From: a virus
IMG/VR virus record: IMGVR_UViG_3300020178_000071
Coordinates: 1 to 25,201 of that record
Reading direction: 5' to 3' (one strand)
Length of the DNA stretch: 25,201 bases
How positions within the stretch are numbered: position 1 is the stretch's first letter; every line of letters starts with the position of its first letter. The position numbers were made by a program, and so were the translations under genes. Positions 4,546-24,291 of this stretch are shown piece after piece. The notes beneath the pieces were generated by a model that saw only the letters and a program-made list of their open reading frames with translations, did no database searches and was not told where the DNA came from.

Positions 4546-4553
4546 TATAAATA
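4546..4553 (+). promoter_or_regulatory. T4-type late promoter octamer
   Basis: This is an exact TATAAATA in the 51-base gap between the radical SAM gene and the next gene, 32 bases before its ATG. TATAAATA is the -10 element of T4 late promoters, which are read by RNA polymerase carrying the gp55 sigma factor with the sliding clamp. The match is exact and intergenic, and the gene downstream looks structural. By base composition a few matches are expected by chance in a window of this size, so position matters. Confidence 0.6.
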
Positions 4554-19123: not shown

Positions 19124-19752
19124 TGATAGGCTTCTGGTATGAGGATGACAGACTAGCTGCCTACGAGACTGCTAACAGGCTGCCTAAAAGCGGACTAATG
19201 GTAGAAGTGGGTTCCTTCCAAGGCAAAAGCACTTGCGACTTTGCTAAGGCTCTAGGTCCTGGATGGAGAATCCATTGTATTGATAAGTTCGAAGGCATAC
19301 CTCAAGCTATACCACTTGGTGTAACAATGAAACAGGCTAAAGAGCACCTAGAAAAAACAGGACAGGATGCTGATTATCTGTTATCACCTGAAAGACTGGA
19401 ACACATTAAACAATTTGTATGTACCGGCGAAGAGCAATTAGAAAACTTCTTTAAGAACGTATCCGACTATCCCAACATAAGCGTAGAGATCACTACCTTT
19501 GATAAGAATTACATCTGGCGAGAGATGGTTGATTTTGTGTTTTGGGATGCTAATCACGAGTACTGGGCAGTTAAAGAAGGATTAGAATACTGGCATGCTA
19601 GATTGAAGCCTGGTGGGCTAGTAGCTGTTCATGACTACTCGGACAATTGGCCTGGAACTAAGAAAGCCGTAGAAGAATATTGTGAGAAATATAATAAAGA
19701 GTTTTCAGTGTGGAGTGGTGCAGGATACGCTTTAATCGTCGATAGGGAGTAA
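19123..19752 (+). CDS. Class I SAM-dependent methyltransferase (Methyltransf_24-like)
   Basis: This 209-aa Rossmann-fold methyltransferase has motif I at GLMVEVGSFQGKSTCDFAKA (SAM-binding Gly-rich loop, here EVGSFQGKS), motif II at RIHCIDKFEG, motif IV at VDFVFWDANHEYWAVKEGLE and motif V/VI at LKPGGLVAVHDYSDNW. The FWDANHEY...D pattern and the HDY end resemble Methyltransf_24 enzymes, which act on small molecules or glycans rather than on DNA. The DNA methylase motif (D/N)PPY is absent. The target is unknown. The gene starts in the stop of the preceding gene, and its 3' end overlaps the convergent minus-strand gene by 21 bases. Confidence 0.8.
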   Translation: MIGFWYEDDRLAAYETANRLPKSGLMVEVGSFQGKSTCDFAKALGPGWRIHCIDKFEGIPQAIPLGVTMKQAKEHLEKTGQDADYLLSPERLEHIKQFVCTGEEQLENFFKNVSDYPNISVEITTFDKNYIWREMVDFVFWDANHEYWAVKEGLEYWHARLKPGGLVAVHDYSDNWPGTKKAVEEYCEKYNKEFSVWSGAGYALIVDRE

Positions 19753-20265
19753 AACGTCTGGCTTGTAAGGATCATAATAAACCCCAGGTTGCCAACCTTC
19801 TGGTATAGGTTTACTTACAGGTATTCTAGTTCTCTGATTGTCAGGACCACACACCCATTTAGTTTTCTCTCTTGCATGAAACAGCTCTGACATTGTTTCC
19901 CTAGTCTTTACAGAGTGACGTCTGTTGTACATTGGATTGTTCTCACCACGTCTAGTACCTCTCATAGTTTTAGATACCTTATCTCTAAACTCTTTGGATC
20001 GTCCGTGCTTACGAGCAGGATGATTGTCGCCCATTTTTGCTTGTCTTATTCTTTCAATACCTTCAGGGGTGTGAATCTTAGTCCTTTCCCTAGCAGTATC
20101 AGAAGCAATTACCATGTTCATACTCTCGGCAATTTGACGACACTGCTCGACTGTAGATACTCGTCGGATTAGTTCTCGAGGTTTAGGGACGTCCTGAACG
20201 TGGGCGTTATCTACAATATAAAGTTCCTGCTTGTGCTGGAACAGAAAGAAAAGGTTAGCTCTCAT
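19732..20265 (-). CDS. NUMOD3-repeat DNA-binding protein (homing-endonuclease-like)
   Basis: This is a 177-aa protein. Residues ~65-130 carry NUMOD3-type helices (IERIRQAKMGDNHPARKHGR, RRGENNPMYNRRHSVKTRET), the DNA-binding module attached to GIY-YIG and HNH homing endonucleases. The C-terminus (TKWVCGPDNQRTRIPVSKPI, PEGWQPG) has the "...G...R.....P.GW..G" pattern often seen after such modules in phages. No GIY-YIG or HNH catalytic motif is visible in the N-terminal 65 residues, so it may be a cut-down homing protein or a regulator. It is the last gene of the only minus-strand block. Its start overlaps the gene upstream and its end overlaps the convergent methyltransferase gene. Confidence 0.7.
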   Translation of the reverse strand: MRANLFFLFQHKQELYIVDNAHVQDVPKPRELIRRVSTVEQCRQIAESMNMVIASDTARERTKIHTPEGIERIRQAKMGDNHPARKHGRSKEFRDKVSKTMRGTRRGENNPMYNRRHSVKTRETMSELFHAREKTKWVCGPDNQRTRIPVSKPIPEGWQPGVYYDPYKPDVLLPIDD

Positions 20266-20443
20266 CTACCAAACTCAATGTTGTATTGCCATTAGGTTCT
20301 AGATCGCCGGCTTCCAACTTACAATGGATAAAGGATGTGCTGTCTATTACCTTTCTAAGCTCTGCGTCTAACTTGGCGCCAGAGTTTAGCAGCTCGTTAC
20401 TGTATGGAACTTCTACTTGTATTGTTGCTCTAATCTTTTTCAT
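20255..20443 (-). CDS. Small protein of minus-strand block, unknown
   Basis: This is a protein of about 62 aa starting KKIRATIQVEVPYSN, with an acidic middle and an ending NTTLSLVDES. No known motif is seen. Three in-frame ATGs are possible (20461, 20449, 20443). The innermost is chosen because GGGTGAAG lies just upstream of it and it overlaps the preceding gene by only 14 bases. Its end overlaps the NUMOD3 gene by 11 bases, so the three minus-strand genes are packed as one operon. Confidence 0.5.
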   Translation of the reverse strand: MKKIRATIQVEVPYSNELLNSGAKLDAELRKVIDSTSFIHCKLEAGDLEPNGNTTLSLVDES

Positions 20444-21776
20444 CTTCATCTTCACCCGCATATTGTGCTATCAAATCACCTAAGCCTGATAGTTTCTCAA
20501 AGATGTTTCTAAAGTACAGAGCGCCATCAGGCCTAGTCTCAGTTTTAGCTCTTATCCTAAGTATCGAAGCATTAATACCGTCAGCATATACATCAATTTG
20601 AGGAAGACCACTGGATCCTACTTTAACATCTGCCTTCAGTGTAACCTCAGACCGAATCTTGCCAATCTTTTCGAACGCCATCTCTAAGTTGTCGAACGTA
20701 TATACTTTTGCCTTACCTGAGGTCAACTGTACTAACTGAACATTCTCCTCATTCCGTGTTGCGTGATATCTAATAGCATTAGCAAATGCCTTAAGAGTTG
20801 CATCATTATCTGAGGAGAGTCTCTTTTCTAACTCTTTAGATACATAAGTGTAGACGTGCTGGAGAGCCTTTTGAGTCTCTGTCTTTTTAAGGTAATCGTT
20901 ATAAACTCTCTTCTGGCTCGACACATCAATATCAAACACCTGCTTCCATAGCTTAATCTGTACATCAAAGCCAGAGCCACTGATTTGTCCAAACTGTTTA
21001 ACATCGCCTGCCTTTAAAGATACATTAATATCTACCTTTTTAAGTTCCTTGGTGTGTGTTGATATGAAGACCGCTACGTCTACTTTTGTCTCAGTCTGAT
21101 TGGCAGTGCCGTCAGCCACTACAGCGATCTTATTGTAGACGTTATTATTATAGACAGTTTCTGCCCATTTCATTACATTACCTGAGTTGGCATACTTAAC
21201 AGACGCCGCGGTGATCTTTTGTACATCAGGTAGTTGCCTAATAGATACATCACACAGAGCCTCAATGTTATTCTTAGCGAGTCCTAGTGTAAGTTCAACG
21301 TCATCTTTAATATCTGGATTGTCGTTCGGCGATTGAAAACTTAACTTCTGTTTAGGTGATTTACCTAGTTGCCTCATGTAAGTTTCAACGTCGGCTGCTG
21401 TTATATTTCGGTTCTTGTTCATAAACCTAGCTAGAATAGCACAACCAAATATACCCTCAGCAATATCTCCGTTGTTATAGCTCTTACCTGTCTTGTAATC
21501 TTGTGTCTTTTCTAAGTGTCCTAATGGTCTCTCTACACCGTTAGCATTTACCATTACTAGTTTATTATGTTTACTGATAGCATCTACTAGCTGTGTAGGT
21601 TGGCACCTACTTACGACATACTCCTTCCCATCAATAATGAACTTGGTGGGTATAAATTTACCACCACCGAACTTACTCAACACAGGATGCCCTGTGCCTT
21701 TCTTTGTGATAGACACGAAAATAGGCACTCTAGAATACCTTTCATTTAATAAATTGGCCTTACTTAGGTCTGCCAT
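20430..21776 (-). CDS. Conserved phage protein with PD-(D/E)XK-like core
   Basis: This is a 448-aa soluble protein. Residues that could form a PD-(D/E)XK nuclease core are Glu107 in GDIAEGIFG, Asp233 in KVDVAVF, and Ser253-Leu254-Lys255 in DINVSLKAGDVKQFGQISG. The helix after the lysine carries QFGQ. The order (acidic helix, D on a strand, SLK on the next strand) is that of restriction-type folds. I recall related unannotated proteins in pelagiphages. The C-terminus is acidic (AGEDEDEKD). A minus-strand late promoter octamer lies 36 bases before the start, which suggests late expression, for example in genome processing or packaging. Activity is not established. Confidence 0.6.
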   Translation of the reverse strand: MADLSKANLLNERYSRVPIFVSITKKGTGHPVLSKFGGGKFIPTKFIIDGKEYVVSRCQPTQLVDAISKHNKLVMVNANGVERPLGHLEKTQDYKTGKSYNNGDIAEGIFGCAILARFMNKNRNITAADVETYMRQLGKSPKQKLSFQSPNDNPDIKDDVELTLGLAKNNIEALCDVSIRQLPDVQKITAASVKYANSGNVMKWAETVYNNNVYNKIAVVADGTANQTETKVDVAVFISTHTKELKKVDINVSLKAGDVKQFGQISGSGFDVQIKLWKQVFDIDVSSQKRVYNDYLKKTETQKALQHVYTYVSKELEKRLSSDNDATLKAFANAIRYHATRNEENVQLVQLTSGKAKVYTFDNLEMAFEKIGKIRSEVTLKADVKVGSSGLPQIDVYADGINASILRIRAKTETRPDGALYFRNIFEKLSGLGDLIAQYAGEDEDEKD

Positions 21777-21787
21777 ATTTCGATCCT

Positions 21788-21795
21788 TATAAATA
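21788..21795 (+). promoter_or_regulatory. T4-type late promoter octamer (plus strand)
   Basis: This exact TATAAATA lies in the 62-base gap between divergent genes, 43 bases before the plus-strand ATG at 21839. Initiation is expected about six bases downstream, near 21801. It faces the minus-strand octamer at 21812. Confidence 0.65.
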
Positions 21796-21811
21796 AACGT
21801 GAACTTTACTA

Positions 21812-21819
21812 TATTTATA
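21812..21819 (-). promoter_or_regulatory. T4-type late promoter octamer (minus strand)
   Basis: On the minus strand this reads TATAAATA exactly. It is 35 bases before the minus-strand start at 21776, with expected initiation near 21806. It faces the plus-strand octamer, so the two initiation sites lie only a few bases apart. Confidence 0.65.
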
Positions 21820-21838
21820 TACCTAGGAGGTTAGTATA

Positions 21839-22385: not shown

Positions 22386-22419
22386 AAATGTCTTGACATT
22401 TTGGTATAAAGGCTTTATA
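22386..22419. promoter_or_regulatory. Two adjacent palindromes over a promoter
   Basis: AAATGTC-TT-GACATTT (22386-22401) covers the -35 box, and TATAAAG-G-CTTTATA (22405-22419) reaches into the -10 box. Both are perfect. They would suit two regulator dimers on one face region of the promoter, as at 7911-7963. Confidence 0.55.
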
Positions 22420-22421
22420 AT
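22393..22421 (+). promoter_or_regulatory. Perfect sigma70-type promoter
   Basis: TTGACA at 22393-22398 and TATAAT at 22416-22421 are 17 bases apart. Initiation near 22428 precedes AAGGAACGGA and the ATG at 22455. It opens the small-gene region at the right of the window. Confidence 0.85.
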
Positions 22422-23153: not shown

Positions 23154-23182
23154 TTGACAAACAGGTATTTAGAGTGTATAAT
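23154..23182 (+). promoter_or_regulatory. Perfect sigma70-type promoter
   Basis: TTGACA (23154-23159) and TATAAT (23177-23182) are 17 bases apart with AATGCTTGACA context. ACAGGTATT (23161-23169) and AATACTTGT (23180-23188) form an inverted repeat with one mismatch flanking the -10. It drives the HAD gene, whose ribosome site (GAAAGAAAA) is weak. Confidence 0.82.
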
Positions 23183-23835: not shown

Positions 23836-24099
23836 ATGACAGAACATTATGACAAGGTCAATCAAAGGCAGTTAGAAATAGAAGCCGAGAAGTGGGGCGA
23901 GACGGTCACAATGATAGAAGCCGCTAAAGGCAGGACTGATACTTGGTGTAATTCAGGACTCCGTGTCCGAGTCTATCATCGAGACTTCGATGAACACAAG
24001 AAAGGTGATGTCATTGTATTAGAAAAAGGTATGTCTTTATCCGAGATGGTAGAAGAGATGGATCGCCCCAAAGACGGTTTCACTACTCACTATAAATAG
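23836..24099 (+). CDS. Small hypothetical protein
   Basis: This is an 87-aa charged protein with no recognised family. Features are a Glu/Lys-rich N-terminal helix (QLEIEAEKWGETVTMIEAAK), RVRVYHRDFDEHKKGDVIVL, and an ending DGFTTHYK. The frame is open further upstream, but ATG 23836 is chosen because AGAGG lies 7-12 bases before it and 10 bases separate it from the HAD stop. The last three codons form a T4 late octamer. Confidence 0.6.
   Translation: MTEHYDKVNQRQLEIEAEKWGETVTMIEAAKGRTDTWCNSGLRVRVYHRDFDEHKKGDVIVLEKGMSLSEMVEEMDRPKDGFTTHYK
24091..24098 (+). promoter_or_regulatory. Candidate T4-type late promoter at a gene end
   Basis: This exact TATAAATA lies at the stop codon of the preceding ORF and ends 16 bases before the next ATG. 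Such a short leader, with GAAAGGAAAG inside it, is tight but possible. The surrounding genes look early, so it may be a chance match. Confidence 0.3.
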
Positions 24100-24114: not shown

Positions 24115-24291
24115 ATGTACGATAGAAGTATTGAGTTTGCTTCAGCAGACGATGCCGCAAAGGCTCGAATACAGGAACTAGAGGCTTTTGTCAAAAGATT
24201 GTTAGATCCAGAAGGCTTTGGACACGCTGTTACAGGCGAAGTCCGAGACGAGGTACGAAGACTCTTCGGTATGAAGAGGGTAGAATCTTGA
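24115..24291 (+). CDS. Small hypothetical helical protein
   Basis: This 58-aa protein has a helical pattern throughout (SADDAAKARIQELEAFVKRL, TGEVRDEVRRLFGMKRVES). No family is recognised. AGAAAGGAAAG precedes the ATG, and the stop TGA overlaps the TTG start of the next gene, so translational coupling is likely. The size and lack of membrane or Cys motifs set it apart from its neighbours. Confidence 0.6.
   Translation: MYDRSIEFASADDAAKARIQELEAFVKRLLDPEGFGHAVTGEVRDEVRRLFGMKRVES

Follow-up and report, generated by a model that had tools for sequence, protein, structure and literature searches.

Facing late octamers between two divergent viral genes are probably a pair of ordinary late promoters rather than a switch

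Can two late promoters that point at each other across a few bases decide which of two viral genes is expressed? The question arises in the window, a 25,201-nt stretch of viral DNA, where a 62-bp AT-rich gap (21777-21838, start codon to start codon) separates a phrog_3560 gene on the minus strand from a DUF1353 gene on the plus strand. An earlier note on this DNA had described TATAAATA on both strands of the gap, mutually facing, and had proposed that they might act as an either/or switch, choosing between the minus-strand block and the DUF1353-like gene. Both octamers are exact matches where it had placed them, at 21788-21795 (+, ahead of the DUF1353 gene) and 21812-21819 (-, ahead of the phrog_3560 gene). 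By the T4 convention, in which the late promoter octamer occupies -13 to -6 (PMC1524935), transcription is expected to start at 21801 (+) and 21806 (-), about five bases apart as the note had estimated. Both fall within the 16-bp spacer that separates the octamers (21796-21811).

Ribosome-binding sites occupy much of the remaining space. AGGAGG precedes the DUF1353 gene (21825-21830, +), and AAGGAT precedes the phrog_3560 gene (21783-21788, -), abutting the plus-strand octamer such that base 21788 is common to both. The octamers lie 43 and 35 bp from their start codons, shortly upstream of the gene starts as in T4-type late promoters, and the predicted leaders measure about 38 nt (+) and 30 nt (-). 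A predicted transcript from either start runs across the opposite octamer, which agrees with the prior view that each polymerase must pass the other promoter. A conserved -35 element is absent, in keeping with T4-type late promoters, and the DNA upstream of each octamer is the neighbour's coding sequence. A promoter-site search listed no sigma-70-like site within the 62 bp, and a sigma-70 reading was rejected for that reason. Both octamers very probably mark real late promoters of the T4 type, the footprints of which overlap.

The plus-strand neighbour, previously called DUF1353-like, indeed belongs to PF07087 (21839-22303, 154 aa; Pfam E=6.9e-14) and matches phrog_1158, labelled tail assembly chaperone (PHROGs E=1.7e-18). 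The minus-strand gene (20430-21776, 448 aa) matches phrog_3560 (E=1.7e-62). Its sequence profile found no match in the PDB. The predicted fold (built with 36 sequences, pLDDT 90; pLDDT 69 with 4 sequences) gave the restriction enzyme MspI (1sa3) as its best PDB match, with E=0.011 and probability 0.94 but a query TM-score of only 0.24. Together with four residues invariant among 36 homologues (E107, D233, S253, and K255), this weak fold match points to a possible nuclease of the PD-(D/E)XK type. No regulator family was matched in either gene, a negative result that falls short of proof.

The surroundings are T4-like. The window encodes RNase H, primase, thymidylate synthase, and ribonucleotide reductase, and its RNase H carries the T4 RNase H C-terminal domain and, within phage records, most resembles proteins of cyanophage and Methylophilales phage (~46% identity). 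A megablast search of phage records with the window returned no match. A NUMOD3-bearing, homing-endonuclease-like gene (19732-20265, -) lies where the minus-strand block ends. On the plus strand, two perfect TTGACA-17-TATAAT sites (22393-22421 and 23154-23182) and a near-perfect one (22629) precede small genes, which from these sites are likely an early-gene block adjoining the late pair.

The earlier note had suggested comparing the gap among relatives, with absence of the second octamer from all close relatives as the outcome against it. Instead, octamers on both strands were retained in every relative found with the phrog_3560/DUF1353 pair divergent, one branch carrying them as a merged palindrome. 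In an alignment of five junctions (the window and four relatives) neither octamer varies, whereas the spacer differs in sequence and in length (16, 16, 15, 14, and 14). Identity of the minus-strand protein to that of the window is 96, 65, 49, and 34% in these relatives. Window-like and L007-like relatives were found through protein alone and retain both octamers. The L035 and L061 rows first came from a pattern scan demanding both octamers and are thus not independent evidence of conservation; the L035 contig was later also recovered by protein search, using an alignment in which its relatives were already present. L061 and L043 have almost the same DUF1353 start and gap but strongly diverged phrog_3560 proteins, a pattern suggestive of a recombination joint at the promoter gap.

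In the palindrome branch (L110, L122, L151, and L155, with L153 sharing the layout of L151), the DUF1353 partner is the same and the two octamers are fused into TATTTATAAATA. The gap here is wider (97-148 bp), and the octamers still overlap although there is room to separate. Some of the first four loci also have a TTGACA box, lying between palindrome and phrog_3560 gene, which perhaps adds an early promoter to that gene. The fused form is that of T4 genes 26/51, where TATTTATAAATA constitutes overlapping divergent late promoters. In T4 26/51 the octamers overlap back to back, whereas those in the window are separate and face each other.

Counterparts of the facing form also occur in T4. The junction of genes 4 and 53 reads TATAAATA-7-TATTTATA, and that of inh and segE reads TATAAATA-6-TATTTATT, the second octamer of the latter being AATAAATA. 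Both share with the window TATAAATA-type octamers placed face to face in a short divergent gap, each within the leader of the other gene; they differ in the genes involved and in spacer length (7 and 6, compared with 16). Gene 4 encodes a head closure protein and gene 53 a baseplate wedge protein, both of them virion assembly genes. Not every listed T4 late promoter has been demonstrated to be active in vivo (PMC2988020).

To see how far the layout extends, we relied on a blind scan for facing octamers plus ribosome-binding sites and on a survey of gp4 homologues sampled by protein only. With short spacers, all 10 scan matches were gp4/gp53. Longer spacers retrieved the gene pair of the window, gp4 opposite either gp53 or a tube-cap protein, and a baseplate-hub gene opposite one of 851 aa, along with some matches that were not between divergent genes. 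The survey comprised 69 non-redundant junctions, 33 of which were face to face; this and the following counts are approximate because the motif N[AC]TAAATA was used and gene starts were called by a simple rule. A further 26 had the partner-side octamer only, so that with this motif two exact octamers are not obligatory, and five had only the gp4-side octamer. Three had neither, one overlapped back to back, and one was without a divergent partner. Background was 0.019 motifs per strand per 50 bp. Spacers ranged from 1 to 31, and a fixed helical phase between octamers was rejected on this range.

The machinery for such promoters is encoded by a 162-kb relative (G001), which has gp55, gp33, and gp45 homologues; these genes are not seen on the window, itself a fragment. 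G001 also contains a second face-to-face late pair (126195-126233, or L071:6195-6233; spacer 23), flanked on one side by a baseplate tube-cap-like gene and on the other by a gene of 534 aa that matched no PHROGs family.

Taken with the octamer sequences, their conservation, and their recurrence at other divergent pairs including T4 4/53, these homologues lead us to a reading that we hold with fair confidence: two ordinary late promoters lie face to face and drive late co-expression of both genes, with a mildly competing shared output and no switch. Both promoters, each situated in the untranslated leader of the opposite gene, would be used by host RNA polymerase carrying a gp55-type sigma, together with gp33 and the sliding clamp gp45. 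When the gp55 holoenzyme initiates, it melts the DNA from -12 to +2 (PMC7892883), which would place the two bubbles side by side at 21789-21802 and 21805-21818. A polymerase at one promoter would cover the other; as the footprints overlap, only one polymerase should bind at once, and one DNA molecule would fire in one direction at a time. With many replicating templates late in infection and the same promoter class for both genes, both should nevertheless be expressed. Exclusion on a single template imposes no choice on a whole population of replicating genomes. The simplest account of the arrangement is compact wiring, with two octamers and two ribosome-binding leaders fitted into 62 bp.

Bacterial bidirectional promoters offer a further comparison (Warman et al., PMC12825309). 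They likewise have close divergent starts, and a bound polymerase excludes the other, as the overlap of footprints predicts for the window. However, those promoters work with the housekeeping sigma, and their starts flank or lie within a symmetric -10 element common to both directions, while the window has two complete, separate octamers of phage late type, 16 bp apart. A shared promoter element was seen only in the L110-type relatives. At such promoters in E. coli, competition was seen only once one direction was substantially activated (PMC12825309). By analogy, competition may tune the output ratio of the two genes in the window.

Competition might also be the reason for the overlap, retained because it sets a product ratio or damps noise, and this regulatory coupling, a weak form of the switch proposed earlier, is unlikely in our estimation. 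It would explain why the same gene pair keeps its octamers overlapped in two geometries, even across the wide gaps of the palindrome branch, and at E. coli bidirectional promoters activation in one direction is able to repress transcription the opposite way and to reduce noise (PMC12825309). Yet the same layout is found at unrelated gene pairs and is thus not tied to these two products. The spread of spacers in the gp4 set also counts against it, as does the lack of a matched regulator family in the two flanking genes.

Less probable still is that one octamer alone is a promoter and the other a chance match in an A/T-rich leader or ribosome-binding context. The plus-strand octamer does abut the AAGGAT of the minus-strand gene, within a conserved block TATTTATAAGG, and single octamers arose in 3-6% of shuffles of the A/T-rich gap. 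A face-to-face pair with a spacer of 0-30 was much rarer, in excess of chance: 12 of 20,000 shuffles of the gap alone contained one, as did one of 1,000 when the whole window was dinucleotide-shuffled. TATAAATA occurs seven times in the window against 2.0 expected. Further exact plus-strand copies include those at 4546 and 5776 (23-29 bp ahead of genes), one at 24091 just ahead of an ORF starting at 24115, and an intragenic one at 1878. Among the best 80 phrog_3560 loci, the reverse octamer was present only where a divergent ORF of 146-254 aa sits upstream and is lacking in homologues that have no divergent neighbour, which argues against the octamers as mere A/T-rich ribosome-binding context. 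In the Synechococcus phage relatives ACG-2014f and Syn19, the phrog_3560 homologue belongs to a same-strand run without a divergent partner and is therefore uninformative about the gap. The recurrence of exact octamers on both strands at unrelated gene pairs also counts against a chance match.

From the geometry, it is implausible that both promoters of a single template are bound at once, and conservation together with published T4 biochemistry supports opposed late promoters with a predicted exclusive occupancy, but the bistable either/or switch built upon them is hardly credible, since the layout is routine between T4-like virion and assembly genes, the same wiring joins T4 genes 4 and 53, and neither a repressor nor feedback nor a second signal was found.

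If the two facing promoters are ordinary ones, what selects the direction on a given template? In T4, an interrupted DNA strand sets the orientation of the clamp and thereby the transcription polarity that is activated (PMC2988020). A passing clamp could therefore fire only one gene of an interlocked pair. By extension from T4, face-to-face late pairs might read the direction of replication, with clamp orientation picking which gene fires; we offer this as a tentative idea that is possible but rather improbable. If true, the ratio of the two outputs would be coupled to local fork direction and lagging-strand activity.

Our interest in the arrangement is moderate: it seems general, and we found no description of face-to-face late pairs as a class in the open-access literature searched, outside which most subscription papers lie. 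The layout looks like a usual T4-like wiring of divergent late genes, and the window adds a further case of an arrangement known in T4. Interlocked pairs of this kind would provide a natural test bed for clamp-orientation choice, and T4 4/53 puts it in a standard laboratory phage.
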